From positions 1 through 64,000 of the forward strand of contig JAGVNJ010000077.1 in the NCBI GenBank assembly GCA_020053305.1: 64,000 bases of DNA. The letters are read 5' to 3'. Numbering within the stretch: position 1 is the stretch's first letter; the number at the start of each line of letters is the position of its first letter. This stretch comes from Candidatus Edwardsiibacteriota bacterium. GTDB lineage: Bacteria; Edwardsbacteria; AC1; EtOH8. The notes under the pieces are model-generated. The model made no database searches. It was not told the DNA's origin and was given only the letters and a program-made list of their open reading frames with translations. Of this stretch, positions 7,637-52,237 are shown piece by piece. Position numbers and translations under genes: made by a program.

Positions 7637-7655
7637 GATGTAATTTCCCCTCTCT

Positions 7656-8836: not shown

Positions 8837-8883
8837 TATATCCTCTTTTTTATTGCCCTTTATGTTCTTTGCGTCTTTGCGGT

Positions 8884-9114: not shown

Positions 9115-9130
9115 TTTTTAGTCCTTTTGT

Positions 9131-10057: not shown

Positions 10058-10065
10058 AGTTCATT

Positions 10066-10110: not shown

Positions 10111-10113
10111 GGG

Positions 10114-10365: not shown

Positions 10366-10433
10366 TTATCTTCAACTTTCTATAATATTTGAAAACCCTT
10401 ATTTGTGTTCTTGTTTCCGTGGTTTCGTACCAG

Positions 10434-10856
10434 CTACTTCCCTGGCGGCCGCAGCCTGCAGGTACAGGAGCCGGAGAGCTTCTTTGAATTGTCAACCTTG
10501 ATCGGCATTCCGTCGTGCTCCCAGTCCAGTATCCCGCCGTTAAGGTTGGCGACGTTGGTAAACCCCTGTTCCATCAGATGCCTTACCGCCTCCTTGCTGC
10601 GAAGTCCCACCGAATCGGCTATGATCAGGGGGCGGTCTTTCGGCAGCTCGGCCAGGCGGTTGTTTAATTCCGGAGCGGGAAGGTAGAGCACCTCCGGGAC
10701 ATCGAATTTCTTGTAGGCGGTCTCGACCGGAGCCCTCAGATCCACCAGTAGCCCACCATTTTGGGCTACCTCCAGAGCCTCCTTTCCGGATAGGTGTGTT
10801 ACGCCTGCTATTAACAGGCCTTTATTTCCGAAATATACATTCATGCTATCTATCAT
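10434..10856 (-). CDS. Rhodanese-like domain protein lacking the catalytic Cys
   Basis: A 140-residue protein with a single rhodanese fold: VDLRAPVE in the N-terminal half, then IIADSVGLRSKEAVRHLMEQGF and NLNGGILDW. In active rhodaneses the loop begins with Cys (C-x-x-G-x-R-S); here that position is Asp81, so sulfur transfer by the standard mechanism is unlikely. The C-terminus carries CTC (131-133), which could serve as an alternative thiol site or metal ligand. It lies between ACR3 and the ferredoxin. A sensing, carrier or arsenate-related function is possible but not shown. Confidence 0.85.
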   Translation of the reverse strand: MIDSMNVYFGNKGLLIAGVTHLSGKEALEVAQNGGLLVDLRAPVETAYKKFDVPEVLYLPAPELNNRLAELPKDRPLIIADSVGLRSKEAVRHLMEQGFTNVANLNGGILDWEHDGMPIKVDNSKKLSGSCTCRLRPPGK

Positions 10857-10897
10857 AGCAGGTGCATGGTTGTTGTCTTTAATTATTTAAACGTTTT

Positions 10898-36356: not shown

Positions 36357-38282
36357 ATGAATAAACTTTTTGATGTTATAGTCATAGGCGGCGGACACGC
36401 TGGCATTGAAGCGGCGGTTGCTTGTTCGGGCATGGGAATGAATACTGCTTTATTCAGCATTACCCTGGACCGCATAGGCTGGATGTCATGCAATCCGTCC
36501 ATCGGCGGACTGGCAAAAAGCCATCTGGTAAAGGAGATTGATGCCATGGGCGGCGCCATGGGCCGGTTGGCCGATTTGTCAGGGATACAGTTCCGGATGC
36601 TGAATAAGGGCAAGGGGCCGGCGGTCTGGTCTCTTCGGGCCCAATGTGACCGAACTCTTTATTCGGCAGAAGCCAAGCATCTTCTAGAGAATCTGCCAAC
36701 TGTAGAACTCCGGCAAGCCTTGGTTAATGATATTATACTAACGGAGCGGAACGGTATAAAATATGCTGCCGGGGTAAGGACCGAAAGCGGTCAGGAATTT
36801 TTTGCCAAGGCCTTGATCGTGGCCACCGGTACTTTTCTTAACGGGCTGATACATATCGGAGACCGGTCCTTTCCGGCCGGCCGGGCCGGGGAATTCCCGG
36901 CCCAAAAATTATCAGATTCACTTAAAACATGCGGGCTGGAAATGGGCCGGCTGAAGACCGGAACCCCGGCCCGGGTTAATTCTCAAAGCGTGGACTTTTC
37001 TGCAATGTCCGAACAGCCCGGCGACCCCGACCCGCCTCCCTTCTCTCAGCAGACCAAGCTTTACGCGGTCATCAATCAGCGTACAAATCAGAAAAGGAGT
37101 ATCTGGCCAATGCTGCCCCAGCTTCCCTGCTATCTTACCTACACCAATCCGGCAACCCACCAGATCATCCGAGACAACCTTTCCCGTTCTGCCCTTTATT
37201 CCGGCCGGATAACAGGCATCGGCCCCAGGTACTGCCCGTCTATCGAGGACAAGGTGGTTCGCTTCTCCGAGCGCGAGGGGCATCAGGTTTTTATCGAGCC
37301 CGAGGGCCTCAATACCAATGAACTTTATCTTAACGGTATCTCCTCGTCTCTGCCCGAGGAGGTCCAGGAGGAGATGATCCATTCCATAAAAGGCCTGGAG
37401 AATGCTAAAATAACCCGTCCGGGCTATGCCATAGAATATGATTTTGTTTTTCCCACCCAATTATACCCCACCCTTGAGGTCAAGCTGATATCCGGCCTGT
37501 ACCTGGCCGGCCAGATCAATGGCACTTCGGGATACGAAGAGGCCGCGGCCCAGGGCCTGATGGCCGGGATCAATGCCGCTAAAAAGATTTTGGGCAACGA
37601 TCCCTTCATTCTGCGAAGGGACCAGGCTTATATCGGCGTTTTGATCGATGATCTGGTCACCAAGGGAACCGAGGAGCCGTATCGGATGTTCACCTCCCGG
37701 GCCGAATACCGGCTGCTGCTGCGCCAGGACAACGCCGATCAGAGGCTTCTGGCTTACGGCTATGGTCTGGGACTTATCGCCGAGAAGCGATGGGTCGATT
37801 TCCAAAGGACCCAAAGCAGGATGGCGTCTGAAATCCAGCGCCTCCGCCTGGAAAAAGCCCTGCCGTCGGATGCCAATGATATTCTCGAAAGGCTGGGAAC
37901 CTCGCCTATCAGCCAGCCGGCCAGCCTGGCCGAATTATTGAAGCGTCCTGAAGTGACCTATGATATTCTCCTGCCGCTGGACCAGTATCGTCCCGATTAC
38001 GACCGGGCGGTTTTCGAAAAGGTGGAGCTGGAGCTCAAATACGGCGGATACGCCAAACGCCAGCAGGACGAGGCCCTGAAGATGAGGGGGCTGGAAAATA
38101 TGGTGCTGTCGAACAACTTCGATTACTCTCTGGTCTATGGACTTTCCACCGAAGCCCGACAGAAACTGCAGAAACTTAAACCCCTCAGCCTGGGTCAGGC
38201 CTCGAGGATATCGGGCGTCTCCCCGGCCGATGTCAGCATGTTGTTGATCCATCTAAAAAAAACGAAAAAGGCTTGCGGTTAA
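36357..38282 (+). CDS. mnmG: tRNA uridine-5-carboxymethylaminomethyl modification enzyme MnmG
   Basis: A 641-residue FAD protein, the family's full length. It has the dinucleotide fold [19 protein letters not shown] (~residues 10-28), the conserved [23 protein letters not shown], the Cys-containing [13 protein letters not shown], and the C-terminal helical domain [26 protein letters not shown]. With MnmE it modifies U34 of certain tRNAs. Together with rsmG, parA and parB it belongs to the classic cluster near the replication origin, but here those genes are up to 17 kb apart. Confidence 0.97.
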
Positions 38283-38358
38283 TTTGACCTTGATATCTTT
38301 TACGTTTTCCTGTAATATTGATGTGTTAGTTGTTAGTAATAACCAGGAGGGCACCATT

Positions 38359-40326
38359 ATGAAAAAAATAATCCTGTCGGCACTGATCCTGATCTCTTTC
38401 TCCCAGGCGCGGGGGCAGGCCATCAAATTTGAATTTTCCAGCATCCAGTTCCGCACCGGGCGGGCCAGCATTGATCCCAGGACCTACCCGGCTCTGGACT
38501 CTCTGGCAGTATTTTTAAAGAACTCCGGGGTCAGGATAGAAATTGCCGGACATACCGACAATGCGGGCGGCTCCAGGGCCAACCAGCGTCTTTCTCAGCA
38601 GCGGGCCGAGACCGTCAGGCGTTATCTGATATCCCGTCATCGCATTCCGGCGTCCCGGTTGATTGCCAAGGGCTACGGCGATCTGTTCCCGCTGGTTCCA
38701 AATCTGACCGCCGAATACCGGGCCAAGAACCGCCGGGTGGAGATCACCATTCTTTCCAAGATCAGAACGGCCCGCCTGTCATATATCCAGGGAAATGTTT
38801 TCACCCGCAAGCAGGGCGTCAGCAGCTGGCAGCCGGCGGCATTGGACCAGGTGTTGACCATTCAGGATGAGGTGGTGACCGATTCTTCCAGCCGGGCCGA
38901 GATCACCTTTGACAACGGCACCAAGATAAAAGTGCTTCCCAGATCGGATATTGTGATCACTAAGCAAGCGTGGGACGAAAAAGAGGGAGTAGGGGATACC
39001 GAGCTTAAGCTTATGATGGGGCGCACCCTCTCCAAGGTGGCAAAGCTGAGGAGCAACAAGGAGCACTTTTCCATGGCCACCCCCACCGCAATAGCCGGAA
39101 TCCGCGGCACGGAATTTATCGTGGAACATAGGCCGGACAGGACCGCCCTGCTTTCGGTTTGGGAGAGCAGTGTGTCCTGGCGTGGACAGTTAGCCGGTTC
39201 CCTGGAAACCGAAGTACCATCGGGCAAGGGGTGTCGTTGCCGGCACGGACAGCAACCGGAACCCTTGGTGGATCTGCCCGCTCCGCCGTTTCCCAAATCC
39301 CCTGCGGCCAATGATACTTTCTTTTATAACCCGGACCGGACCCGTTCCATCACTTATCATTGGAGCAAGCCGGCTGATATTAAGGCCCACCTCCTGGTCT
39401 GGCATGATATTGATCAGAACGAGGTGCTGGTTGACGCTGTTGTATCCAGCGACAGCTTTAAAATGGCTCCTCCAAAGACTGACAAAATTTACTGGTCATT
39501 GACGGCGATAGATTCTATCGGATTTGAGGGGCAGCCCTGGCCCAGCCGGGTGCTCAACCTGTCCCGCAAGCTTGATAATCCCCGGCTGGATATATTAAAC
39601 CCCAAATCGGAACAAACGATCAACAGCAATATGACCCTGGTAACCGGCCAGACCGATTTAAAGGCCTTGATCACCATCAATGGACTGACCGTCACTACGG
39701 CACAAGATGGAGTTTTTGCCCAACCGGTTAAGTTAACTCCGGGCATAAATAATATCATGATAACCTCCACCGACCGGGCCGGGAATATCACTTCGGTGGC
39801 TTTCAGTGTGGTCTCTTCGCCCGTAAAGCGTTATGAGTTGCAGCCCTTTGGGTCAGGGATTAAGCTGCTGGGAGGAGATATGGACTTTAGTGCTATCGGG
39901 TTTATCGCTGGTGCCAAGGCCGCTTATAACCTAAACGAAAAATACAGTCTTGGTGTCTTGGGCGGATATAGTGAAGTGGGCGCCAGGGATGTTACTGAAA
40001 TTCCAAACGAATACCTGACCAGTATGACATTGGCCGGAGCTTTTGTAAAATACACCTTTGCCCCGGGAGCCGCAATCACTCCTTATTTGACAGCCGAGGC
40101 CGGAGCCATCATGTGGAAGAACCAGTATAACGACGCCACCCTTTACGAATCAAACAGCCCGTTCGTCGCCATCGGCCCGGGCGTACGGTTTAACCTTAAC
40201 CCTGGCATCGGACTGCAGGCAGAGGGCAAGGGCGGATTCATGGCCAACAATGATCCCAACTCCGGACCGATGGATGCCAACAACCTGTTCCTCGTCGGAT
40301 CACTTGGTCTCTGTTTTGGCCTTTAA
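38359..40326 (+). CDS. OmpA-FecR-barrel outer-membrane protein
   Basis: A 655-residue protein with a signal peptide. Its domains run in an unusual order. First is an OmpA peptidoglycan-binding domain (~20-135; IAGHTDNAGGSRANQRLSQQ, NRRVEI). Next is a FecR-type domain (~145-260; TFDNGTKIKVLPRSDIVI, TPTAIAGIRGTEFIVE). Then come an Ig-like stretch (~390-470) and a C-terminal barrel (~490-655). It probably links the cell wall to the outer membrane. The ATG at 38359 has AGGAGGG upstream; the longer frame to 38284 is rejected. Confidence 0.87.
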   Translation: MKKIILSALILISFSQARGQAIKFEFSSIQFRTGRASIDPRTYPALDSLAVFLKNSGVRIEIAGHTDNAGGSRANQRLSQQRAETVRRYLISRHRIPASRLIAKGYGDLFPLVPNLTAEYRAKNRRVEITILSKIRTARLSYIQGNVFTRKQGVSSWQPAALDQVLTIQDEVVTDSSSRAEITFDNGTKIKVLPRSDIVITKQAWDEKEGVGDTELKLMMGRTLSKVAKLRSNKEHFSMATPTAIAGIRGTEFIVEHRPDRTALLSVWESSVSWRGQLAGSLETEVPSGKGCRCRHGQQPEPLVDLPAPPFPKSPAANDTFFYNPDRTRSITYHWSKPADIKAHLLVWHDIDQNEVLVDAVVSSDSFKMAPPKTDKIYWSLTAIDSIGFEGQPWPSRVLNLSRKLDNPRLDILNPKSEQTINSNMTLVTGQTDLKALITINGLTVTTAQDGVFAQPVKLTPGINNIMITSTDRAGNITSVAFSVVSSPVKRYELQPFGSGIKLLGGDMDFSAIGFIAGAKAAYNLNEKYSLGVLGGYSEVGARDVTEIPNEYLTSMTLAGAFVKYTFAPGAAITPYLTAEAGAIMWKNQYNDATLYESNSPFVAIGPGVRFNLNPGIGLQAEGKGGFMANNDPNSGPMDANNLFLVGSLGLCFGL

Positions 40327-40373
40327 ATTCTTTCCCCGATTTTATTTCTTCGACGAATAAATAGCGCAGGGGA

Positions 40374-40447
40374 TCATTCCCGCGCCACGCCCCGCCTACG
40401 GCGAGGCTCCGCTTGCAGCGGGGCCGTGGGAAGGCGGGAATCCAGGT
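40374..40447. repeat. Long palindromic intergenic repeat (ATTCCCGC...GCGGGAAT)
   Basis: Outer arms CATTCCCGC and GCGGGAATCCAGG enclose GC-rich inner complementarity (CCCCGC with GCGGGG). A further CCCGCA/TGCGGGA pair follows near 40470. It is of the same type as the shorter element at 12301-12326. The 268-base gap 40327-40594 holds nothing else but the terminator. Confidence 0.6.
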
Positions 40448-40553
40448 CTGGATACCATTCGGAATTTATCCCGCACATGATGCGGGAACGGCATGACAAA
40501 AAGACATTTATAAACAGGTGCGGGTTGTTGATCAATTTAATTACCGATATAAT

Positions 40554-40583
40554 AAAAAGGCCTCCAAGACGGAGGTCTTTTTG
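40554..40583 (-). terminator. Terminator after the DUF4349-like gene
   Basis: On the minus strand arms AAAGACCTCC and GGAGGCCTTTTT with a short loop end in a T-run, 12 bases after the stop at 40595. Confidence 0.78.
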
Positions 40584-40594
40584 CTTAGACGGCA

Positions 40595-41284
40595 TTATCC
40601 ATTGGGATCGGCCAGCGCTTTTCTGCGGCTCCTGATCCAACCTGTCAATAATCCTAAAAAGAAAAGCAGCAGGGCCGAAAGAGCCGAGAGAAGTATCAAT
40701 AAATATTTATTCCTCGATCCGGTCCGGCCGGAGGAGTAATTATCGTAGCCCCTCTCCTTGATGGATACCTGTATCATGGCCTGGGTGCTGTCCTGCTGGG
40801 AAGCGCTCCGCAGCTGGCTTTCCAGCGACTCGATCTGCTGGGTCAGCAGCTTGACCACCTCCGCTTCGGGTTTTTCCGAGGAGATTATTTTCTCCAGATA
40901 TCTTTTGAATATCTCTATCTTCAGTTGGATATTCTCCAGGTCGTAATAGTTCTGATACTCGCTGTAGCTCTTGGACTGGACATCGCCCAGTTCGGCATAT
41001 GAACCTATCAGTCCCAGGGCTTTTCCTTTGGGGATCTGCAGGCTTAGGTTTATGGAGCTTTTCTTGGTCTGGTTGTTGGTGTATTCGTTGTAATTCTTGA
41101 CCGCCGGATTGTATTCGGCATTGATCCGGTCGATCTTTTGGGCAATGCCTTTCACGTTCCTGACCTCTATGACGATATTCCCGTTCCCGGCGCCACCGGC
41201 CGGGCTGATCCTGGCGGCAACGCTTTCGGCGCAGGCCATTCCCCCCATCAGCAAAGCAAACAAGCACAAAAGATTCCGTGTCAT
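40595..41284 (-). CDS. DUF4349-like membrane protein
   Basis: A 229-residue protein with a signal peptide (MTRNLLCLFALLMGGMACA), an extracytoplasmic domain with VIEVRNVKGIAQKIDRINAEY and LSLQIPKGK, a long coiled coil (~100-165) and a C-terminal membrane helix (~185-215) followed by RSRRK. This matches the layout of the DUF4349 family, of unknown function. The gene stands alone. Confidence 0.75.
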   Translation of the reverse strand: MTRNLLCLFALLMGGMACAESVAARISPAGGAGNGNIVIEVRNVKGIAQKIDRINAEYNPAVKNYNEYTNNQTKKSSINLSLQIPKGKALGLIGSYAELGDVQSKSYSEYQNYYDLENIQLKIEIFKRYLEKIISSEKPEAEVVKLLTQQIESLESQLRSASQQDSTQAMIQVSIKERGYDNYSSGRTGSRNKYLLILLSALSALLLFFLGLLTGWIRSRRKALADPNG

Positions 41285-41374
41285 CTCTCTCTCCTTAAAA
41301 TATTAGTGTTCCAACCGCTAAGCATCATATATACCAGTATAATATCAGGGATATTCCCGGTCAAGGGAAATTTA

Positions 41375-42244
41375 TCAGGTCTCGGCCAGCACCACGCCGC
41401 CGATCAGGATCAGTCCGCCCAGGATCAGACCGGCGGTCAATTTTTCCCCCAACAGAAATATGCCCGATAGCACGGTCACCAGCGGTATCAAGTATACCAC
41501 CGCTCCCAGCCGGGCGGCCTCGGTGTGCTTTAAGGCCCAGGACCACACCAGGAATCCGAAGATGGTGCACACCAGAGTCAGAAAAGTCAGCGCCCACCAG
41601 GCCGGAGCCGGCAATTGGGCCAGGTTTCCAGGAATGAAAAAAACCAGCGGCATACTGCCCCACAATATGGCCGACATGGTTATCAGGTTGGGATCCTCCC
41701 GGCCCACCATGGGCTTCCCCACGATGGTATATATTGCCCAGGATATCGGCGCCCCCAGGGTGATCAGCACCCCCCATAGGTAGTTGAAGCTGATGGGGTC
41801 GTTGGTTCCCCAGCGCACCACCGCAAACAGGCCGATGAAGGAGATGATTATCCCCAGCAGTTTTCTGGCGGTGATCTTTTCCCTTAAAACCATATTGGAG
41901 GCGACCAGGGTGAAGATGGGGGAGAGGCCGACCATCAGGCTGGCGGTTCCGGCGGCTATCCTGGTCTCGCCGAAGTTGAGGGCCAGATTATATCCCAGGA
42001 CGCCGGTAATCCCGTATAGCGAGATACCCCGCCATTCTTTCTTCCAGACCGCCAGCATCCTTTTGGGGCCATAAAAGACCAGCATTATCGCCAAAACGAT
42101 CGCCGCGGCCGGAACATACCGCAGCGAGGTAAGCCCCATGGCCGAAAACCCCTGAACCTCCAGCAGGTATTTGATGGCTACAAAAGCAATCCCCCAGGAG
42201 AGAACTACCAGCAGCATTAAAAAAAGCAATAATATTTTTTTCAT
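41375..42244 (-). CDS. EamA/DMT family transporter
   Basis: A 289-residue protein with ten predicted membrane helices in two EamA repeats (LSWGIAFVAIKYLLEVQGF; WGVLITLGAPISWAIYTIVGK). The second repeat ends LGEKLTAGLILGGLILIGGVVL. The family exports amino acids, nucleotides or other small metabolites; the substrate is unknown. It follows a related transporter gene by 12 bases. Confidence 0.92.
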   Translation of the reverse strand: MKKILLLFLMLLVVLSWGIAFVAIKYLLEVQGFSAMGLTSLRYVPAAAIVLAIMLVFYGPKRMLAVWKKEWRGISLYGITGVLGYNLALNFGETRIAAGTASLMVGLSPIFTLVASNMVLREKITARKLLGIIISFIGLFAVVRWGTNDPISFNYLWGVLITLGAPISWAIYTIVGKPMVGREDPNLITMSAILWGSMPLVFFIPGNLAQLPAPAWWALTFLTLVCTIFGFLVWSWALKHTEAARLGAVVYLIPLVTVLSGIFLLGEKLTAGLILGGLILIGGVVLAET

Positions 42245-42256
42245 ATATTCCCCGAA

Positions 42257-43108
42257 TTATTTTCCCAGTTCGGCGGTGAGCGTCCCCGCCAGGATCATTC
42301 CAGCCCCCAGCCATCCCGCCATCGGCAGCATCTCGCCGAAAAGCACGAAGGCAAAACCCGCCGCAAACAAGGGCTCCATGGTATAGATGATGGCGGCCCT
42401 GGTGGCGGTGGTCCTTCTCTGCCAGTAGAACTGGATGACCAACGCCCCGGCGGTAGCCAGCAGGCTGGTGACGGCCAGGTCCAGCAGCAGACTGTCTGAC
42501 CATTGCCAATGCGGTTTTTCCAGCGCGCCGATGAAGATGGCCGACAGGATCACGGTGGTTAATATCTGGACCATGATCATGTCCATGGGCTGATGCTTTT
42601 GGGTGAACTTCTGCACCAGCACCACCTCCACGGCAAAGCTGACGGCGCAGAGGGCGGTCAGCAGGTCGCCCTTGTTGAAGCCGCCGGCTTCCGGGCGGGA
42701 GAGGAAGTACAGCCCCGCGGCGGCCATAATCACCCCCAGTATCTGCCAAGCGTCGCTTTTGGTTTTCAGCATGACGACCGAGAGCCAGGGCACCAGCACC
42801 ACACACATTCCGGTGATAAAAGCCGATCGGGTGGCGGTGGTGTAAACCAGCCCCACGGTCTGGAAGGCAAATCCGGCGAATAAAAAAACTCCTATCAACA
42901 TCCCGTCGCGCCAGCCCTCCCGGGAAAGGGTTTTCAAGCCTTTATAACAGAACGGCAGCAGCGCCAGCCCGGCCAGCAGGAACCGCACTCCCAAAAACAC
43001 CAGGGGAGAGGCGTACAGCATGGCATCCTTGACCGCCACAAAGGTGACGCCCCAAAAAAAGGTGGCCAGCAACAACCACATATCCGCTTTTAAATGTCTG
43101 TTCGGCAT
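42257..43108 (-). CDS. EamA/DMT family transporter (tandem partner)
   Basis: A 283-residue ten-helix DMT protein starting MPNRHLKADMWLLLATFFWGVTFVAVKDA. It has the typical first-repeat arginine-rich turn (LVPWLSVVMLKTKSDAWQ) and ends FGEMLPMAGWLGAGMILAGTLTAEL. It is the first gene of a two-gene operon with 41375-42244. The two may be separate exporters or a heterodimer; the sequences are clearly related but not recent copies. Confidence 0.92.
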   Translation of the reverse strand: MPNRHLKADMWLLLATFFWGVTFVAVKDAMLYASPLVFLGVRFLLAGLALLPFCYKGLKTLSREGWRDGMLIGVFLFAGFAFQTVGLVYTTATRSAFITGMCVVLVPWLSVVMLKTKSDAWQILGVIMAAAGLYFLSRPEAGGFNKGDLLTALCAVSFAVEVVLVQKFTQKHQPMDMIMVQILTTVILSAIFIGALEKPHWQWSDSLLLDLAVTSLLATAGALVIQFYWQRRTTATRAAIIYTMEPLFAAGFAFVLFGEMLPMAGWLGAGMILAGTLTAELGK

Positions 43109-43317
43109 AGGCAGACATTATATCATAAAAGACGGGAGATTTAATATGCACCGACCTCGGTGGAAGAAATAATATTATACTTCTGCCAAAAATGTTTTTT
43201 ACCACGGAAACACTGAATTTTTGGAATAATAATCCTGGAAAAAACCGGGCTTAGGGGCCTTTTCTTTGTGTTTTCAGTGGTTCCGTGTTTCAGTGGTTAG
43301 TTTCGAAGCGATCTTTT

Positions 43318-44289
43318 TTATATCGCCAGGCTGCGTTCCCGCTCAGAACTCATCTTGTTTCCCATCATCCCCTCGATGCCGTTCAATATCTGGCGGATCT
43401 CTCCTCGGGTGGGCGGATAATACCGGTCGGCCGAGCTGAGATTGGGATCCCGGAACAGCTTGATCAGTTTGCCGCGGCTCTCCCGGGCGATGATGGTGGA
43501 TAGTTTCTCGCCAGGCATGAATTTTATTTCGTCGCGGTTGCGGAAGGAGGGATTTATCATCAGCAGGGACAGGGCCTGCTGGCGGTAAAGAGAGGCCGCC
43601 CGGATGGTCTCCCGATAGGCCGGCTCATCGAAGATGTCGGGGCAATGGGCGGTCAGGGGCTCGGGATAGCCGTCGCTGAGCAGGATCACCAGATTGGTGG
43701 AGCCGGGCTTGCGGAACTTCTCCAAGCGCACCATGGCCAAAGCCTTTAACAGTCCGTCGGCCAGCGGGCTCTCGCCCTGGACCTTGAGGCCCATCAGCCC
43801 CTTGGTGATCACCCGATAGTTGTGGGTGGGGTGGTTGAGTATCTTGGCCTGCATGCCCTGCAGGGAGATCAGCCCGATGCGGTCCTGATGCAGCTTGAAG
43901 TAGCCGGTCAGGGAATCCAGTATCTCGGCGAAGATCTTGATGAAGGGAAAGGTGGAGCGGCTGACATCCACCAGCAGCACCAGGGTCATGCTCTGGCGCT
44001 CCAGCTTCTCCCAGCCCACAAAATCGCCGGGGCCGATGCTGAATTCCTTCCGGGCCAGCGAATATTTGCCGCCGATCAGCGAGCCGACCACCGTCTGCAG
44101 GGGGGCCAGGGTGTTCTCGCCGGCCCGGAAGCGGACGACCTTGATGTTGCGCCCCGACCGGTCGCTGATGACCGATTTGCGCTTCTTGCTGCCGCGCACA
44201 GTCCTTGATTTTAAGCGGCTTATTTTATTGAGAAATTTAAAGAAGGCTTTTTTCAGCTGGCTGAACGTGCCGGGCGGCTCCTGGAACAA
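43318..44289 (-). CDS. VWA domain protein, chelatase D-subunit-like, probably made by -1 frameshift
   Basis: The frame encodes a von Willebrand A domain with MIDAS motif DVSRSTF (~residue 108) and SPLADGL, closest in layout to the C-terminal half of BchD/ChlD. The first standard start is a TTG at 44289 without a ribosome site. The same frame is open without a stop back to the A9 run (44415-44407) near the end of the upstream ATPase gene. There A AAA AAC is a -1 slippery sequence that would produce an ATPase-VWA fusion of about 730 residues. Known chelatases use this arrangement. Confidence 0.85.
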   Translation of the reverse strand: MFQEPPGTFSQLKKAFFKFLNKISRLKSRTVRGSKKRKSVISDRSGRNIKVVRFRAGENTLAPLQTVVGSLIGGKYSLARKEFSIGPGDFVGWEKLERQSMTLVLLVDVSRSTFPFIKIFAEILDSLTGYFKLHQDRIGLISLQGMQAKILNHPTHNYRVITKGLMGLKVQGESPLADGLLKALAMVRLEKFRKPGSTNLVILLSDGYPEPLTAHCPDIFDEPAYRETIRAASLYRQQALSLLMINPSFRNRDEIKFMPGEKLSTIIARESRGKLIKLFRDPNLSSADRYYPPTRGEIRQILNGIEGMMGNKMSSERERSLAI

Positions 44290-44393
44290 AACCGGGGCCG
44301 CTTTGTCCTGGGCCTGAAGGCGAAGTAGGATACCCGGTCTTTTCTTTTTTCTAAAGGGCAGAATCTTTTTGGAGAAATCCAGGATCTTTTCAG

Positions 44394-45521
44394 CTATGGA
44401 TTGCCGTTTTTTTTTATACGTTGTTGGTCGGAGGAGGAGGCGGCGGCAACTTCGATCTTTTGTTTGACCATTGTTTTTGGGAGGAGCTCTTTGTCCCTGG
44501 GCAGGTTTTTATTGAAATTGTCCATTATTTCATCCGTCGATGGCGGCTCCAGCAGTCCGCCGTCCCGGGTGCGGTGGATCAACGTCAGCTCTGAGGCCAG
44601 CAGGATATCACTGGAAATAACCTCGCTGCGCCGGTTGAGGGCGGCTATAGTCATGGCGGTCTTGATTATCACGATGTCGGGCCGCTGGCCGTCCACCTTT
44701 AAGGCGGCGCAGGTGGCGGCCACCGAATCTATCAACGACGGATCGATGGTTACCTTAGGCAGATGCTCCCGGGCGGAAAGAATCTGTTTCCCGATCTCTT
44801 CTTCCTGCCTGTTGAACTTTTCATGAAAGGCTTCCCTTTGGTTTTCGAACAGCAGATTGTTCTGCACCACCCGGGAGCGGACGGCGGGATCCTTGATGGT
44901 CTCGATCTTTACGCACAGCGGAAAGCGGTCCAGGATCTGGGGACGGAGGTCGCCCTCCTCGGGGTTCATGGTGCCCACCAGCACAAAATCGGCCGGATGT
45001 GAAACCGAGATGCCCTCGCGCTCGATGGTGTTCCAGTGGGTGGAGGCGGCATCCAGGATGTCGTCCACCAGATGGTCCGGCAGCAGGTTGACCTCGTCCA
45101 CGTAGAGGATGTTGCCGTTGGCCTGGCCCAGAATGCCGGGTAGGATCACCTTCTGGCCGGTCTTTAAAAGCTTTTCGATGTCGATGCTCCCGATCAGCCG
45201 GTCCTCGGTGCAGCTTAGGGGAAGATTGATTATCCTCATCTTCCGCGTGACCGCCGGATGATCCGGCCTTTCGCGGCACAGCGAGCAGAAGTCCTGGGGC
45301 CTTTCCGGATGACAATTAAAAATACAGCCGTCGATAGCCTTGCCCTCCGGCAGGATGGACTCCACCGAATGGACGATGGTGCTCTTGCCGGTGCCCTTGG
45401 GCCCGCTGATCAGCAGCCCGCCTATCCTGGGATTGACGATGTTGGCCAGGTAGGCGTATTTCAGCTTGTCCTGCCCCAGAACGGAGGAGAAAAGAAAACG
45501 TCTGTTTTGTGAGTTATTCAT
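44394..45521 (-). CDS. AAA+ ATPase, Mg/Co-chelatase I-subunit-like
   Basis: A 375-residue AAA+ protein. It has Walker A GPKGTGKST (~residues 40-48), Walker B NILYVDEVNLLPDHLVDDIL, sensor VGTMNPEEGDLRPQILDRF, and a C-terminal helical lid. A Cys-rich insert, CIFNCHPERPQDFCSLC (~66-82), is unusual and could bind Zn or an Fe-S cluster. The family drives metal insertion into tetrapyrroles. No cobalamin or chlorophyll genes are nearby, so the substrate is unknown. The 3' end carries the A9 slippery run leading into the VWA frame. Confidence 0.9.
   Translation of the reverse strand: MNNSQNRRFLFSSVLGQDKLKYAYLANIVNPRIGGLLISGPKGTGKSTIVHSVESILPEGKAIDGCIFNCHPERPQDFCSLCRERPDHPAVTRKMRIINLPLSCTEDRLIGSIDIEKLLKTGQKVILPGILGQANGNILYVDEVNLLPDHLVDDILDAASTHWNTIEREGISVSHPADFVLVGTMNPEEGDLRPQILDRFPLCVKIETIKDPAVRSRVVQNNLLFENQREAFHEKFNRQEEEIGKQILSAREHLPKVTIDPSLIDSVAATCAALKVDGQRPDIVIIKTAMTIAALNRRSEVISSDILLASELTLIHRTRDGGLLEPPSTDEIMDNFNKNLPRDKELLPKTMVKQKIEVAAASSSDQQRIKKNGNP
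44407..44415 (-). promoter_or_regulatory. Candidate -1 frameshift site (A9)
   Basis: On the minus strand nine A residues are followed by C. In the ATPase frame the codons are ATA AAA AAA AAC, containing the heptamer A AAA AAC. Shifting back one base gives AAA CGG CAA TCC ATA GCT and an open frame into the VWA domain, whereas the zero frame ends four codons later at TAG. Confidence 0.72.
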
Positions 45522-45526
45522 GATCC

Positions 45527-45829
45527 CTATACTTTATAATCAACCACCACCCGCTGATTACGCACCTTTCCCAAAAAACCTACGGTTTTAAGGTGCTCGG
45601 GGTGCTTCTGGTAGATATCCAGTCCGGCCTGGTCGTCGAATTCCGAATACAACGCCAGGTCGTAGGCCGCATCGGAGGGGTTGATGTTCTGCCCCACCTC
45701 CAGAAAACGCACCGTATCGATCTTGTCCTTGAGCCCGGCCAGCATCTGGGCGGCCAGCTTGAGATTTTCATCTTTACCCCGGCCGTCGGCATGATCCTTG
45801 AAGGTCCACATTACGATATGTTTTACCAT
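45527..45829 (-). CDS. Dabb (stress-response A/B barrel) domain protein
   Basis: A 100-residue protein starting MVKHIVMWTFKDHADG, with the ferredoxin-like alpha-beta barrel signature VGQNINPSDAAYDLALYSEFDDQAGLDIYQKHPEHLK. The family forms small dimeric barrels; the reaction is often unknown. It lies 6 bases before the chelatase-type ATPase gene on the same strand and is probably cotranscribed with it. The ATG at 45829 is chosen because homology begins there. Confidence 0.9.
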   Translation of the reverse strand: MVKHIVMWTFKDHADGRGKDENLKLAAQMLAGLKDKIDTVRFLEVGQNINPSDAAYDLALYSEFDDQAGLDIYQKHPEHLKTVGFLGKVRNQRVVVDYKV

Positions 45830-46162
45830 TTTAGTCCCCCGTAGTTTCAGAATAAGAATACAACTTGACAGCAATAAAATCAAGAAAATTTATTAATAAT
45901 TTATTAATAAAGTTTGGTATAATGAATGTGGGTTTTATTTTAGGTCATTCTGAAAATACCGTATTGCTTTACCAATGAAGAATCCGAGATCCTTCATTAG
46001 GAAAGTATCGGGTCTATTTCAGGATGACGGCGGGCAGTGATATTCGCCCCGAAAAAATAATACCGTGCAAATCCGGATGCTCTGTGCCATCCGTGTGCCA
46101 TTAACCGGAGAATAATTATTAACAATCCTGAATTTCAAAAGATAGACCAGGCCGTCCAATTA
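45830..46162. other. 333-base region without a gene
   Basis: The region holds an AT-rich tandem repeat of AATTTATTAAT (about 45887-45908) and a TATAAT box (45918-45923) that could serve rsmG. It also holds the palindromic element at 45944-46028. A phrase-type repeat (CCGTGCAAATCCG...GCCATCCGTGTGCCATT) lies at about 46061-46102. No coding frame with a ribosome site was seen, apart from a possible N-terminal extension of rsmG. Confidence 0.6.
45944..46028. repeat. 85-base MITE-like palindromic element
   Basis: Terminal arms GTCATTCTGAAA (45944-45955) and TTTCAGGATGAC (46017-46028) pair with one G-T. Inside, AATGAAG (45974-45980) and CTTCATT (45992-45998) form a second hairpin around ATCCGAGATC. 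Sequences with CCGAGATCCTTC and TTCAGGATGAC are common between genes in many bacteria, so this is a dispersed element. Confidence 0.65.
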
Positions 46163-46783
46163 ATGGGCGTGACGTTGAGCCAGGAACAGATAGAAAAGTT
46201 GTTCCAGTTTCAGGCTCTGGTAAAAGAGTGGAACGTCAAGATAAATCTGATCTCACGTCGAGACATAAACAGCCTGCTGGACAATCATCTCCTGGATTCG
46301 CTGTCAGCCTTACCGGTATTGGCGGCGGAGTCCACGGCCGAAGTGATGGATCTGGGCCCGGGCGGGGGTTTTCCCGGCATTCCGCTGAAGATCTGCCTGC
46401 CGGAGATTAAGCTGACCTGCTTAGAGGCTACCCAGAAGAAGGCCCGCTTCATAGAGCTGGCTGTCACCGAATTGGGTTTGCCCGATGTTGTGGTGATCGC
46501 CAAGCATTCCCAGGAGGCCCAAAAGGATAAAAATCTTTTGAACAGATACGATTTTATAACCGCCCGGGCGGTGGCCGAGCTAAAGGAGCTGGTGAAGATA
46601 TCCTTTCCATTCCTGAAGGTCGGTGGGAAACTGCTGGCCTATAAATCCAGCAAGGCCGGCCAGGAGATCGAGGCCGCCGGGGAGATCATAAATAAACTGG
46701 GGGGAACGATCGAGGGTGAGCTGCGCCAGGAGCCGGGATCAGGCGACAAAGACAGAAAAATAATCATAATAAGGAAAGAATAA
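46163..46783 (+). CDS. rsmG: 16S rRNA m7G527 methyltransferase RsmG
   Basis: A 206-residue class I methyltransferase. The SAM motif is VMDLGPGGGFPGIPLKICLP (~residues 60-79), followed by VELTCLEA-like KLTCLEATQKKARFI and ARAVAELKELV. It methylates G527 of 16S rRNA. The ATG at 46163 is the first standard start. The same frame continues upstream as NNPEFQKIDQAVQL, which resembles the family N-terminus and is preceded by GGAG, so an ATT or ATA start near 46115 is possible. It belongs to the mnmG-rsmG-parAB set. Confidence 0.93.
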   Translation: MGVTLSQEQIEKLFQFQALVKEWNVKINLISRRDINSLLDNHLLDSLSALPVLAAESTAEVMDLGPGGGFPGIPLKICLPEIKLTCLEATQKKARFIELAVTELGLPDVVVIAKHSQEAQKDKNLLNRYDFITARAVAELKELVKISFPFLKVGGKLLAYKSSKAGQEIEAAGEIINKLGGTIEGELRQEPGSGDKDRKIIIIRKE

Positions 46784-46792
46784 ACCAACTTA

Positions 46793-47479
46793 ATGAGTTA
46801 CACCCATCTGGTCCTTTTCGACATAGACGGCACCCTGGTGCATTGCGGCCCCACTCCCAGAAGGGTCTTCAAGCAGGCCCTGCTGGATGTTTTCGGCACC
46901 GCCGGCCCGATAGACGGCTGGATATTCGATGGCAAGACCGACCCCATGATCGTCCGGGAATTGATGAGCGCGACGGGGGTGCCGTACAATGACGAATTGG
47001 TGAAAAAGGCCCTTGACATTTATGCCGAAGGGATAAAAAGAGAGCTTCCCGACGAGACCAACAAGAAGGTCTATCCCGGGGTTCTCTATCTGTTGGAGGC
47101 GCTGGCCAAACAGCCGGTTCTGTTGGGCCTGTTGACCGGCAATATACAAAAGGGCGCCCGGGCAAAGCTGGAATCGCTGGATATTTGGAGGTATTTCTCC
47201 TTCGGGGCCTTTGCCGACGATTCCTCCGTCCGCAAAGAACTGGCCGATGTTGCGGTGCAGAGGGCTTATGAAATGACCGGGCAGCAATTCTCAGGAAAGC
47301 AGATCGTCATCATCGGCGACACCGAACATGATATAAAGTGCGGCCAGCATCTGGGGGCCAAGGCCATTGGAGTGGGCACTGCCAGAAGCACCGCAAAGGA
47401 ACTGCTGGCCCACGGAGCGGACCATGCTTTTGACGATCTTTCGGATCATGCTTTAGTTCTTCGGTCAATAATGGGGTAA
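46793..47479 (+). CDS. HAD family hydrolase
   Basis: A 228-residue haloacid dehalogenase-type phosphatase. Motif I is VLFDIDGTLVHCG (~residues 7-19), motif II LLGLLTGN, and motif IV IIGDTEHDIKCG, followed by GAKAIGVGTARS. The cap is helical, as in phosphoglycolate phosphatase-like members. The substrate is unknown. It starts 9 bases after rsmG and is closed by a strong terminator, so the two form one transcript. Confidence 0.92.
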   Translation: MSYTHLVLFDIDGTLVHCGPTPRRVFKQALLDVFGTAGPIDGWIFDGKTDPMIVRELMSATGVPYNDELVKKALDIYAEGIKRELPDETNKKVYPGVLYLLEALAKQPVLLGLLTGNIQKGARAKLESLDIWRYFSFGAFADDSSVRKELADVAVQRAYEMTGQQFSGKQIVIIGDTEHDIKCGQHLGAKAIGVGTARSTAKELLAHGADHAFDDLSDHALVLRSIMG

Positions 47480-47491
47480 TAGATGATAGAT

Positions 47492-47522
47492 AAAAAGCCC
47501 CGGCTTAGTGCCGGGGCTTTTT
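47492..47522. terminator. Terminator after the HAD gene
   Basis: Arms AAAAAGCCCCGGC and GCCGGGGCTTTTT with loop TTAGT. It suits both the HAD gene and the convergent damaged barrel gene. Confidence 0.9.
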
Positions 47523-47538
47523 ATCTATTTAAACCACA

Positions 47539-48095
47539 TTACGGATGCAGACCAAGCATAATAGAAAAAACAGAGTGTTTAATGTCGTAATTGTAGTCTT
47601 TAAATATTTTACGAAGCCCCATTGTGTACCTAACATCTAAAGATATTTTAAAGGGTGTTTTTATTTCACCACCCAAAACAAGTCCCAAATCAGGGCTGTT
47701 AACATACTGGCTGAAATCAAAATCTTCATATTCAGGTTCGAATTTGACGTTAGCTAATAAGCTTACTGCCGGCCCTAAATACGGACTGACCCCATATTTT
47801 CTTATTAAGGGGATCTTCACTAAAACCGGGATATCAACATAATTATAAGTTATAATAAGATCCGACACACATCCCTTCTGGGTGTATAATATTTCTGGCT
47901 GTATGCAAAAGGTGGTGAAATTAAAAGAAAAAACGCGCCGCCAATAAAACCTTTTTTTGTTCTATTTCTTACAACATCCTCACCAATAAAATTGGATAAA
48001 TTCATTCCGCCCTTCAGACCGAAGGAGGTCGTTTGTGCCAAACACAAACCAGAGAACGATGTAAGCATTAAAATTACCAAGAGGCATCTTTTCAT
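47539..48095 (-). pseudogene. Frameshifted PorT-like outer-membrane protein gene
   Basis: An N-terminal part (MKRCLLVILMLTSFSGLCLAQTTSFGLKGGMNLSNF...GGAFF) and a C-terminal part (SDLIITYNYVDIPVLVKIPL...HSVFSIMLGLHP) lie in different frames. Joining them at the homopolymer 47928-47933 (T6 in the coding strand) by adding one T gives SFNFTTFCIQPEILYTQKGC and a complete protein of about 185 residues homologous to the neighbour at 48162-48782. The gene is either a real pseudogene, phase-variable at the T-run, or carries a sequencing error. Confidence 0.82.
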
Positions 48096-48121
48096 GGTTA
48101 ACTCCTGGTTACGGGTTGTTT

Positions 48122-48147
48122 AAAGCCCCGGCAAAAGCCGGGGCTTT
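48122..48147 (-). terminator. Terminator downstream of the PorT-like gene
   Basis: Arms AAAGCCCCGGC and GCCGGGGCTTT with loop AAAA. It lies 15 bases after the stop at 48162 and before the damaged paralogue. Confidence 0.85.
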
Positions 48148-48161
48148 AATGTTACCAAATC

Positions 48162-48782
48162 TTAGAACAGTGCGAAACCTACCAATAGAGAAATATTGCT
48201 GTTCTTGATGTCTATATCCCAGCCGCTATCATCTATGGAATTTAAACCCATGGAATAACGGGCTTCCAACGATAGCTTTACCGGGGTTTGCACGCCGGCC
48301 CCGAAGGTCAGCCCCATGTCGGAACTTTTTACAAAATCATCAATATCGCCGGAGACTGAAACGCCACTAACCGTTACTTCTTGGGTGGCGCCAATCATGG
48401 TGGCAAAATATGGGCCTGCCAGAATGTACGGTTTTACAATAGCCCCAAATGATATTTTCGCCAAAACAGGTATTTCCAGGTAATTAATACGGGTTGTAAG
48501 CTCAATCGGAGTGCCTAAATAATCACCCGACTCCTTGCAGCCTTTTTGAGAATAAAATACTTCCGGTTGAATTGCGATATTGGGCAGAAGGCCAATGGTC
48601 GCATAGCCGCCAATTGCAATACCGGTAAGGCTTTCGGGATTGGTTAAGCTGTCTCCGGTAAAATTGGACATATTCATCCCGCCCTTGATCCCCAAGGATA
48701 GCCCCTGGGCGGAACAGTATTGGGGAAGACCGAAAACCATAGCCGTGACCAGAACCAACAGGACAAAGGCTGTCTTTCTCAT
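48162..48782 (-). CDS. PorT-like outer-membrane beta-barrel protein
   Basis: A protein of about 206 residues with signal peptide MRKTAFVLLVLVTAMVFGLPQYCSA and the family start LGIKGGMNMSNFTGDS, then strands including IAIQPEVFYSQKGC and INYLEIPVLAKISF, ending ISLLVGFALF. It is an eight-stranded-type barrel (outer membrane beta-barrel/PorT family). It is paralogous to the frameshifted gene downstream. The ATG at 48782 has a GGAAAG site; the frame to 48857 runs into promoter sequence. Confidence 0.87.
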   Translation of the reverse strand: MRKTAFVLLVLVTAMVFGLPQYCSAQGLSLGIKGGMNMSNFTGDSLTNPESLTGIAIGGYATIGLLPNIAIQPEVFYSQKGCKESGDYLGTPIELTTRINYLEIPVLAKISFGAIVKPYILAGPYFATMIGATQEVTVSGVSVSGDIDDFVKSSDMGLTFGAGVQTPVKLSLEARYSMGLNSIDDSGWDIDIKNSNISLLVGFALF

Positions 48783-48911
48783 GATCTTTCCTTTCTTATT
48801 ATTAGATGCTGGGCTTTCGCTGGGATATATGCTATAATAATTGTGGTCATAAGTCAATACTTTATTTGAAGTTTAACGTTTTTTTGAAGTCTTGCGGCTT
48901 TTCGGTTTTCC

Positions 48912-48941
48912 TTGACAAAGACCGGCAGGCTATATTATCAT
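48912..48941 (+). promoter_or_regulatory. Probable parA promoter
   Basis: TTGACA (48912-48917), 18 bases, TATCAT (48936-48941), 58 bases before the parA ATG; a ribosome site TAGGAG lies at about 48987-48992. Confidence 0.6.
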
Positions 48942-48999
48942 ATCAGTTTGCAAACCAACTTATCGGCACCCCCAATCAGGCTATTTTAGGAGCGTTTCA

Positions 49000-49770
49000 A
49001 TGTCGCGCATCATCGCTTTGGTCAACCAAAAAGGCGGCGTGGGAAAGACCACCTCGTCCATCAATCTGGCGGCCTCGCTGGCCGTGCTGGAGAAGCCCAC
49101 TCTGTTGGTGGATATCGACCCCCAGGCCAACGCCACCAGCGGGCTGGGCATAGACAAAAGCTCGGTGGAGACCGGCATCTACGACGTGCTGTTGAACGAG
49201 GTGCCCATCAACGATATAATTGTCAAGACCCAGCTGGACAAGCTGCACCTGGCGCCCTCCCAGATAGATCTGGCCGGAGCCGAAGTGGAGATGGTGGGAA
49301 TGGAAGGCCGGGAGAATCTCTTAAAGCCCCACCTGGAAGCCTTGCGCGAAAGGTACAAGTACATCCTGATAGACTGCCCGCCCTCGCTGGGCCTGCTGAC
49401 CATAAACGCCCTGACCGCGGCCGATTCGGTGCTGATCCCCATCCAGGCCGAATATTATGCCTTGGAGGGCCTGGGCCAGCTGCTGAACACCATCGATCTC
49501 GTCAAGAACGGCCTCAATCCGGAGCTGGACATCGAGGGCATCCTGCTGACCATGTTCGATTCCCGCCTTAACCTGGCCCAGCAGGTGGCCGGGGAGATAA
49601 AAAAGCATTTTCCGGAAAAGGTCTATGAGAACGTTATCGCCCGCAGCGTCAGGATAGCCGAGGCTCCGTCCCACGGCAAGCCGATCATATTATATGACGT
49701 CAACTCCAGCGGCGCCCAGAGCTATCTGGCCCTGGCCAAAGAGGTGGCGGCCCGGAGGGGCGCGAAATAG
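49000..49770 (+). CDS. parA: Chromosome partitioning ATPase ParA (Soj)
   Basis: A 256-residue Walker-type ATPase. It has the deviant Walker A QKGGVGKTTSSINLA (~residues 9-23), DIDPQANATSGLG, and the nucleotide switch YILIDCPPSLGLLTINAL. The length is that of chromosomal Soj proteins without an N-terminal HTH. It forms gradients on the nucleoid and moves ParB-parS complexes. ParB is encoded 2.5 kb downstream, separated by three unrelated genes, an unusual interruption. Confidence 0.97.
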   Translation: MSRIIALVNQKGGVGKTTSSINLAASLAVLEKPTLLVDIDPQANATSGLGIDKSSVETGIYDVLLNEVPINDIIVKTQLDKLHLAPSQIDLAGAEVEMVGMEGRENLLKPHLEALRERYKYILIDCPPSLGLLTINALTAADSVLIPIQAEYYALEGLGQLLNTIDLVKNGLNPELDIEGILLTMFDSRLNLAQQVAGEIKKHFPEKVYENVIARSVRIAEAPSHGKPIILYDVNSSGAQSYLALAKEVAARRGAK

Positions 49771-49795
49771 ATCATTCATTAAAAAGAGAGCTAAG

Positions 49796-50431
49796 ATGAA
49801 TAAAAGACCCTTTTCCGGCCTTCGTTTAATAGCTGTACTGGCGGCCCTGGTCGTCATCCTCCCGGGCTGCGCCACATTGACCCAGATGGCCGGGGCGCTA
49901 TCTAATCTGCAACGACTGAAGTTCAAAGTGGCCGGGGTCTCCGGCTTCACGGTGTCGGGCATCGCCATTGCCGGCAAACAGCAGTTAAATGATTTCACCC
50001 TGCTGGACGGTATCAACCTGATGGCGGCCTACCGCAACAAGAAACTTCCGGCCGGGTTTACCCTCAACATCGAGGCCATAAATCCCAACGACGGCACCGG
50101 AGGCTCGCCCCAGACCAGCTCCACCCTGACCAGCTTCGAATGGCGGCTGCTGATAGACGACAAGCCCACCGTCTCCGGCAATATCGCGCAACCCATCGAG
50201 ATCCCCGGCACCGGCCAGTCGGCCGTCATCCCGCTGCAGATAAGTCTGGACCTGGTGGAGTTCTTCAACGAAAAGGGCTACAATGACCTGTTGAACCTGG
50301 CCCTGGCATTGGGCGGGGCCCAAAGCGACATCAGCCGGCTGGCCATAGACGCCCAGCCCCGCGTCAGCACCCCGCTGGGGGAGATCACCTACCCCGGCCG
50401 GATCACCATAGTATCCAAGGAATACCGGTAG
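49796..50431 (+). CDS. LEA14-like lipoprotein
   Basis: A 211-residue protein with a lipobox (LVVILPGC, ~residues 17-24). The mature part resembles LEA type 2/WHy domains: FKVAGVSGFTVSGIAIAGKQQLN, LPAGFTLNIEAINPNDGT and SGNIAQPIEIPGTGQSAVIPLQISLDL. It should sit on a membrane facing the periplasm. Function unknown. The ATG at 49796 begins the signal sequence; earlier starts lie inside parA. Confidence 0.85.
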   Translation: MNKRPFSGLRLIAVLAALVVILPGCATLTQMAGALSNLQRLKFKVAGVSGFTVSGIAIAGKQQLNDFTLLDGINLMAAYRNKKLPAGFTLNIEAINPNDGTGGSPQTSSTLTSFEWRLLIDDKPTVSGNIAQPIEIPGTGQSAVIPLQISLDLVEFFNEKGYNDLLNLALALGGAQSDISRLAIDAQPRVSTPLGEITYPGRITIVSKEYR

Positions 50432-50463
50432 GCATACTACGGCATTAACTGAATGGGGGGCTT

Positions 50464-51633
50464 ATGAAAAAGTTTATGGCGCTAATAACCTTTTTCTTCT
50501 GTTCTATTGTTCTTGCTCAAACAAATGTTTCAATCATTACCTATGACCCGTTATTTACGCCTTTTACTGATTTTTACGCCAGCCCTAAACTATCCGCAAT
50601 AAGCGGTGGGCGTGGTTGCACCGGTATTGCCGACGAGGACGGTGGCCTTGAAAGCACCCTGTTGAACCCTGCTTCCTTGATGGTAAAGGGATTTGCATTA
50701 TCTGCCGGCTACAATTATAAAAGCAACATCGATTGGTATTCTGGGGTAAAGTTCACAGCATACCAACCACCCATTTTAGCCGGGGTTGGTTTTTCCCTGT
50801 TTAATAAATTAAACTTCGGCGCTTTGTATTACGATAGAAGCAATTTTAAATTTGTTGTAGAAATAGATGAAGCAACAATAATTAGGGAGGATGAAGGCGG
50901 CTTGCCACCCTATGTGGCCGTGGATGACGTTTGTCAGCGGACTTTGTCTTTTCCGGTTTCTTACGCACCGTTAAAAACCTTCAAAATGGGCATAAACGTA
51001 AACTATTCTTTCTTCTCCCACGATTTTTATATTGGAGTCAACAATAACGTTTTTGAAAAAACCCGTTTTGAATTACTAACCGCCGATTTTGGTTTGATAA
51101 TTAAGCCCTCCGACAGATATTCTTTCGGCCTGACGGTATCCCCCCGATATACCAAGCAGTTTATCAAGGAACGAATATACGAATACAGCTTAATAGCAGA
51201 CTCTCTCTGGCCTTCGGAAATTGGCGGCTACACCATCCCCGAACCAAGGATGAATAAATTTCCCCTTTCGGCCGGTTTGGGCATAAAATACCTTCTGTCC
51301 GAAAAGATCAAACTATTTGCCGACTATCATTTCGTCAACGCCTCATTATATCCGTATTATTCTGACCGGCATGATATAAATTTAGGCGTTGAATACCTGC
51401 ATAAAAAAACCGCTCTGCGCGCCGGAGCTTTCACTCTGCTGGACTTTCGTAAAACAGACCTGTGGCTGCAGGAGTCCGCCGGAAAGGAACATCAGTATTT
51501 CCTTACTTGTGGCGTGACCCAACCTGTCGGCCCGATGGAGGTAAGCCTGTCGCTGATGGACAGCCATATATTATCGTCCGGGAGTTTAAAGCAGACCCAG
51601 GTTTCCTGCGGTTTGAATTACAAAACAAAATAA
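50464..51633 (+). CDS. PorV/PorQ-like outer-membrane protein
   Basis: A 389-residue protein with signal peptide MKKFMALITFFFCSIVLA. The barrel-type sequence includes GGRGCTGIADEDGGLESTLLNPASLMVKGFALSAGY (split), similar to the N-terminal pattern of PorV/UPF0164 proteins (GARG..GGA..AL..NPA). It continues with many aromatic strands and ends QVSCGLNYKTK. It may help secrete FlgD-tailed proteins, as PorV does in type IX secretion; this is inference. Its DNA is more AT-rich than parA and parB. Confidence 0.78.
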   Translation: MKKFMALITFFFCSIVLAQTNVSIITYDPLFTPFTDFYASPKLSAISGGRGCTGIADEDGGLESTLLNPASLMVKGFALSAGYNYKSNIDWYSGVKFTAYQPPILAGVGFSLFNKLNFGALYYDRSNFKFVVEIDEATIIREDEGGLPPYVAVDDVCQRTLSFPVSYAPLKTFKMGINVNYSFFSHDFYIGVNNNVFEKTRFELLTADFGLIIKPSDRYSFGLTVSPRYTKQFIKERIYEYSLIADSLWPSEIGGYTIPEPRMNKFPLSAGLGIKYLLSEKIKLFADYHFVNASLYPYYSDRHDINLGVEYLHKKTALRAGAFTLLDFRKTDLWLQESAGKEHQYFLTCGVTQPVGPMEVSLSLMDSHILSSGSLKQTQVSCGLNYKTK

Positions 51634-51644
51634 TAGGAGCATCA

Positions 51645-52208
51645 ATGAACGTCAAGGGAACCGCACTGGCGGTGCTGCCGATCTTCATCGAGAGCAAATT
51701 CGGCAAAGAGGGCCTTAACAAGTGGCTGGAATCGCTGAATTCCGAGGCGGCGGCGCTGTACCAAAACGCCAACACCGTCAAGATCAACCATTGGTACCCT
51801 TTAAAGGAAAGCTACCTTGAGCCGACGGCGGCCCTGTGTGAGCTTTTTTACAACAATGATCCCCGGGGGGCCTGGGAGGTGGGGCGATTCAGCGCCGATT
51901 TCGCCCTGAAGGGCGTTTACAAGGCTTTTGTCAAAATGACCTCGGTCAGCTTCTTCATCAAGCGGGCCAGCCTGCTGATGACCACCTACTACCAGCCCAG
52001 CAAAATGGAACTCAAGTCGTCCACCTACAGCCAGGCGATCCTGCATATGACCGAATTTCCCGAGGCTCACCACCTGATAGAATCGCGCATCGGGGGATGG
52101 GTCCAGCGCGCATTGGAGATCCACGGCTGCAAAGAGGTGGCGGTGGATATAACCCGCTCCCTGGCCAACGGCGATTCTCTCACCGAGTTTATTTTAAGCT
52201 GGAAATAA
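51645..52208 (+). CDS. TIGR02265/heme-NO-binding-like small-domain protein
   Basis: A 187-residue cytoplasmic protein of helical character: VKGTALAVLPIFIESKFGKEGLNKWLESL, then ALCELFYNNDPRGAWEVGRFSADFALKGVYKAF and a C-terminal WVQRALEIHGCKEVAVDITRSLANGDSLTEFILSW. The pattern resembles the TIGR02265/V4R-HNOB-like family often found as stand-alone sensors. No heme His in the expected place is certain. It lies 30 bases before parB with an AGGAG site 6 bases before the ATG. Confidence 0.68.
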   Translation: MNVKGTALAVLPIFIESKFGKEGLNKWLESLNSEAAALYQNANTVKINHWYPLKESYLEPTAALCELFYNNDPRGAWEVGRFSADFALKGVYKAFVKMTSVSFFIKRASLLMTTYYQPSKMELKSSTYSQAILHMTEFPEAHHLIESRIGGWVQRALEIHGCKEVAVDITRSLANGDSLTEFILSWK

Positions 52209-52237
52209 TTTCGACACATCAGAATATTGGAGCCACC

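Follow-up and report, generated by a model that had tools for sequence, protein, structure and literature searches.

A probable programmed -1 frame change joining a ChlI-like ATPase to a VWA domain in Candidatus Edwardsbacteria and relatives

A single gene in the window (the whole 64 kb stretch of DNA analysed here, from the family Candidatus Edwardsbacteria) very probably gives two products through a programmed frame change. Normal decoding would produce a ChlI/CobS-like AAA+ ATPase (I) of 375 aa; a -1 move at a run of nine A's (A9), affecting only some of the mRNAs or ribosomes, would produce an I-VWA protein of 734 aa. Both products are presumably made and may assemble together as an I ring with VWA-bearing subunits, as do the I and D subunits of Mg-chelatase. 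Judged by dN/dS, the selected coding frame changes from ATPase to VWA at the run in congeneric genomes.

The features of the locus are listed in Table 1. The run is exact, with T before it and C after it, and the ATPase frame ends in CGT ATA AAA AAA AAC GGC AAT CCA TAG. The -1 (VWA) frame is open from 44508 to 43318, i.e. through A9, and the joined I-VWA translation reads RIKKKRQSIAEK at the junction. These values agree with the initial annotation, which had placed the run at these coordinates with the ATPase ending just past it, had read the VWA frame as open through it, and had predicted a fusion of about 730 residues with the peptide KKRQSIAEK across the junction; the reading of the ATPase frame as a separate I subunit under normal decoding also fits the predicted product. 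The first ATG, GTG or TTG of the VWA frame past A9 is the TTG at 44289, and a search of the window sequence upstream of it found no ribosome site, again as annotated. The further statement that no ATG or GTG precedes the VWA domain holds for the 117 nt past the run, but not beyond: the VWA Pfam match begins about 142 codons past A9, and GTG codons at 44199, 44091 and 44019 lie upstream of the domain within the selected VWA-frame coding stretch.

Table 1. Features of the I-VWA locus
Feature	Coordinates	Strand	Remarks
ChlI/CobS-like AAA+ ATPase frame (predicted I product, normal reading)	44394..45521	minus	375 aa
A9 slip site (candidate)	44407..44415	minus	zero frame ATA AAA AAA AAC; heptamers A AAA AAA and A AAA AAC
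Zero-frame TAG stop of ATPase	44394..44396	minus	10 nt past A9
VWA frame past A9	43318..44406	minus	362 aa + stop; -1 relative to ATPase; basic linker, then VWA domain
Stretch without ATG, GTG or TTG, evolving as VWA-frame coding sequence	44290..44406	minus	117 nt

This A9 is the sole run of at least nine identical bases in the window. The 2.59 Mb genome holds 11 exact A9 runs on both strands, the slip-site run included; at least seven of the other ten lie inside open frames, so the run alone is no proof of recoding use. A possible second slip site is another of these A9 runs (L106; G000 C24:17046-17056), which precedes the stop of a 421-aa open frame by about 27 nt.

Relatives were collected by profile search with one genome per species, and further searches of 386 relatives added more. 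Those from the profile search are titled Edwardsbacteria, UBP2, WOR-3, Zixiibacteriota, CSSED10-310, Cloacimonadota, Oligoflexia and Latescibacterota. The -1 arrangement is present in all members found with A9 or A10 (20 of 20) and with A7 (three of three), from at least seven phyla. A run of A7 to A10 occupies the same place in all 23 frameshifted junctions found; the ATPase stop always falls within about 33 nt past the run and VWA is always in -1. Four congeneric assemblies have A9 and the same frames. An in-frame fusion of both parts is found only in G145 and G282, which belong to one family and have lost the A-run. The A-run, whose conservation the initial annotation had proposed as a check, is thus kept along with the -1 arrangement in the 23 frameshifted members. 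Neither a relative with a clear ATG and ribosome site for VWA nor loss of the run with both frames intact, the two observations that it had set against its own reading, was found in the window lineage. Loss of the run coincides with frame fusion, and the shorter run (A7, one genus) coincides with a Shine-Dalgarno-like site and a hairpin.

The ATPase tree unites frameshifted and fused members in a single clade (100/100 support). Both the A7 genus and the fused family branch from within this clade; A9/A10 is therefore likely to be the older state, as far as this tree indicates. G393, which shares its family with the A7 genus, carries A9. Every one of the 23 genomes that gave a match has exactly one I-type copy, so that the short product has no other source in those genomes. 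The fused family shows the long product to be a natural protein; a separate I gene was sought in G145 and G282 and none was found, hence free I is not needed everywhere. The gene is absent from two of the ten genomes of the window family (G004 and G009) and is thus dispensable.

A more distant second group (L093, L094, L095 and L098; 44-48% identity) also has A9 or A10 at a -1 junction between I and VWA, and CobN is present in two of its four genomes. A ChlI-like ATPase, 49% identical, is encoded at positions 5203-6150 of phage record MT837301.1; this 7-kb record from human faeces is labelled Bacteriophage sp. and is possibly a mislabelled bacterial contig.

The agent of the slip may be RNA polymerase, as in Thermus dnaX, or the ribosome. 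In dnaX both routes are known: the slip is ribosomal and aided by stimulators in E. coli, while in Thermus it is the polymerase that slips, on A9 (PMC5009743). The window has A9 and no stimulators; Shine-Dalgarno-like sites upstream and hairpins downstream were both sought and neither is present (folding z 0.2). On this parallel, polymerase slippage is a strong candidate for the window. Its A9 also reaches the length of at least nine A's used to recognise transcriptional slippage. The other A9/A10 members show no consistent Shine-Dalgarno-like site upstream, and their downstream folding is mostly similar to that of shuffled sequences (z near 0), with L039 (-2.4) and L056 (-2.5) as exceptions. 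Polymerase slippage would explain runs of A9-A10 without stimulators equally well or better than a ribosomal slip, and in the A9 lineage the addition of one A by RNA polymerase appears somewhat likelier than an unassisted ribosomal -1 slip.

A purely ribosomal slip, by tandem -1 tRNA re-pairing on A AAA AAA or A AAA AAC, is nevertheless quite possible. It competes with the polymerase route only and would give the same two products, with the longer run offsetting the missing stimulators. The related A7 genus (L008, L042 and L055) has the layout of E. coli dnaX: a Shine-Dalgarno-like site lies 10 nt upstream of A7 (AGGAGG in L008 and L042, AGGGGA in L055), and a few nt downstream, past the stop, there is a stable hairpin (GGTGGGC..GCCCACC or close; z -2.1, -6.4 and -4.9). 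In addition, the last zero-frame codon of the run is AAG or AAC in most A9/A10 members, which also suits a ribosomal slip. Against this, the stimulators are lacking or inconsistent in the window and the other A9/A10 members; seven A's would suffice for a ribosomal site, yet nine or ten are retained; and A9 is a known efficient length for transcriptional slippage (PMC5009743; PMC1088944). The codon phase of the run was considered as a discriminator between polymerase and ribosome and dropped, since any phase of nine A's holds A AAA AAA. The initial annotation had attributed the joining of I and VWA to a ribosomal -1 slip on A AAA AAC; the frame change is supported, and the ribosomal step is unproved.

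Whichever agent acts, the position of the change is marked by selection. Over the last 102 nt ahead of the run, the ATPase frame has a dN/dS of 0.22 compared with 0.86 and 1.09 in the other frames (three congeneric genomes); in the 117 nt past the run it is 0.20 in the VWA frame compared with 1.1 and 4.2 (four congeneric genomes). The latter stretch has no ordinary start codon in three of these four genomes, and the remaining one has TTG. In a sister-genus pair (L005 and L006) the VWA frame is likewise constrained past the run (0.42, then 0.14 and 0.17), and a search of this frame in L006 found no ATG, GTG or TTG for 276 nt past the run. The missing start codon, which the initial annotation had suggested looking for in relatives, is therefore kept in the genus, where the start-less stretch is under purifying selection in the VWA frame. 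Since this constraint begins at the run, translation of the VWA frame probably sets in at the run, in favour of a frame change and not of a new start.

Three further explanations were rejected on the start-less stretches, the congeneric assemblies and the frame-specific dN/dS. Synthesis of two separate proteins, with VWA translated from its own weak start or by reinitiation past the ATPase stop, is very unlikely. TTG 44289 and GTG 44199 are available in the window, and the ATPase stop of L008 overlaps with an ATG; that ATG is missing in sister species, which have TAATAA and TAATTA. The window lacks a ribosome site, and neither the selection upstream of TTG 44289 nor the start-less stretch of L006 fits such a start.

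Still less credible is a sequencing or assembly error, by which a single in-frame I-VWA gene would have lost one A from an A10. Homopolymers are error-prone, and the contigs of L038 and L033 break at or near the run, which leaves ATPase and VWA on different contigs; yet the four congeneric assemblies agree, the 20 A9/A10 and three A7 members all give -1, and run length and phase co-vary while the shift is always -1. A decaying pseudogene pair, which could be read into the interrupted frame and the missing gene in G004 and G009, is next to impossible given the low dN/dS in both parts and MIDAS motifs that are intact across at least seven phyla.

The ATPase frame matches Pfam AAA_lid_2, Mg_chelatase and AAA_5 above cut-off. 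It scores 416 bits against the N-terminal half of TIGR02442 and 335 bits against TIGR02030 (cut-off 467 bits), and it matches the ChlI structure 6l8d in PDB with an E-value of 1.6e-84 over query residues 8-324; the ChlI structure 8osf is also matched. By these matches it is assigned to the ChlI/CobS AAA+ superfamily and appears ChlI-like over most of its length. The VWA frame matches Pfam VWA_2 (8.5e-9), and its MIDAS motifs are intact (DVSRS / ESPLADG / SDGYPEP), with the DxSxS and the last D invariant across 15 sequences; this half thus has the VWA domain with DxSxS...T/S...D MIDAS that characterises the BchD/CobT type. Its sole sequence match to a solved structure is the BchD subunit of 2x31 (E 2.2e-10). 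Both halves match TIGR02442 in the expected order, with 416 (I) and 65 (VWA) of the 779 bits of the cut-off; neither of the two tetrapyrrole chelatase families, TIGR02030 and TIGR02442, is matched at its curated cut-off. A search of an anti-phage defence library gave a weak generic AAA match only.

The AlphaFold model of the VWA half has a mean pLDDT of 70 and is confident mainly at residues 141-320, where it has a VWA fold. In a fold search, residues 136-350 of the model are recognised as a VWA fold with generic VWA matches only; the VWA domain of NorD (9qh6) is among them and no BchD or CobT structure stands out. The 135 residues before the modelled domain are mostly a low-confidence basic linker with a charge of +24. 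The basic linker was dropped as a diagnostic feature because some CobN-type fused homologues also have a strongly basic one (up to +21).

The large subunit of the known chelatases, CobN/ChlH (PF02514), was not found in G000, the genome of the window (99% complete), or in 25 other genomes of the group, with five controls positive; the 26 genomes include G004 and G009, both of which lack the I-VWA gene. Of 24 comparison genomes carrying other ChlI-like genes, 15 have PF02514. Given the lack of CobN/ChlH in the genomes of the group, the predicted I-VWA complex is unlikely to be a tetrapyrrole chelatase of a known type. Remodelling or metallation of a protein target, in the manner of NorQD-type AAA+/VWA pairs, is more likely. 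In NorQD, metal is inserted into a protein by the joint action of an AAA+ ring and its VWA partner (PMC13036017), and by analogy a NorQD-like action is the best working idea.

When the flanking genes of 19 loci were clustered, no family was shared across the clade except the I-VWA pair itself, so that a partner or substrate cannot be read from gene context. The ATPase start is closely preceded by the end of a Dabb-domain gene (45530-45883), a neighbourhood seen in the genus (the window and L072) and not in the other lineages compared. Genes resembling mnmG, rsmG, parA and parB at 36357-53119 follow the order that is common around replication origins (the mnmG-, rsmG- and parA-like calls were made by eye from translations), interspersed with unrelated minus-strand genes that include the I-VWA unit. 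At 6338-11956, a Cu/Zn-efflux-like transporter (SO_0444/SaoE-type, below cut-off) is close to an ACR3 arsenite efflux gene.

Frameshifted chlD genes, some of them without CobN/ChlH, have already been published, and the gene in the window belongs to that kind. What is added here is a broad clade without the large subunit, a frame-specific test of selection and a change of signal within the clade. Large-subunit-less chelatase-like proteins, known but unexplained, are thereby extended to a wide range of phyla, most of them uncultured, which raises the question of the role of an I/D pair without a tetrapyrrole-binding partner. Orthologues with one output differ in signal: some have A9/A10 alone, others have A7 with a Shine-Dalgarno-like site and a hairpin, and others have fused frames. 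Should both products be made, nature has provided in this clade an experiment that allows a direct comparison of slippage by polymerase and by ribosome. As a tentative synthesis, doubtful in its full extent, the clade may hold a large-subunit-less AAA+/VWA machine, kept in at least seven phyla, that metallates or remodels a protein and not a tetrapyrrole, and whose two-product output has outlasted an exchange of the recoding mechanism inside one family, from polymerase slippage on A9/A10 to a ribosomal slip on A7 with Shine-Dalgarno-like site and hairpin.

Among known systems, NorQD/MoxR-type pairs resemble the I-VWA unit in combining an AAA+ of hexamer type with a VWA partner and no tetrapyrrole large subunit (PMC13036017); they differ in that the ATPase here is ChlI-type by sequence and that VWA would be fused to a second ATPase copy by the frameshift. 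Thermus thermophilus dnaX shares with the window an A9 on the sense strand, no obvious stimulators and two products with a common N-terminus; its long product is the zero frame, whereas the long product of the window needs the shift. E. coli dnaX is matched by L008, L042 and L055 in the order of Shine-Dalgarno-like site, A AAA AAA and hairpin, with similar spacing. The window, in contrast, has neither site nor hairpin, and the E. coli shift gives the short product.

The closest likeness is to frameshifted chlD (fs-chlD). Frameshifted chlD-type genes, which the initial annotation mentioned for other bacteria, are documented in the literature (PMC3711429; PMC9227772). Mg-chelatase genes of this kind were reported by Antonov et al. 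2013 (PMC3711429), whose reporters with A7, A9 and A11 gave 10, 40 and 63% frameshifting respectively in E. coli, in favour of a programmed frame change. Frameshifted chlD in bacteria with neither the large subunit nor the chlorophyll and B12 pathways was described by Kuznetsov et al. 2022 (PMC9227772); Spirochaeta thermophila and Brevefilum fermentans are examples. As in fs-chlD, whose A-runs span 7-11, the I-type AAA+ frame of the window ends just past a poly-A run, VWA follows in -1, and the A-rich site at the overlap is conserved. A downstream stimulatory RNA structure is usual, not defining, for fs-chlD (PMC9227772); it is absent from the window and strong only in the A7 genus. Compared with published fs-chlD, the present set is a whole large-subunit-less clade of at least seven, mostly candidate, phyla, and within it the recoding signal switches and the two frames are fused in one case.
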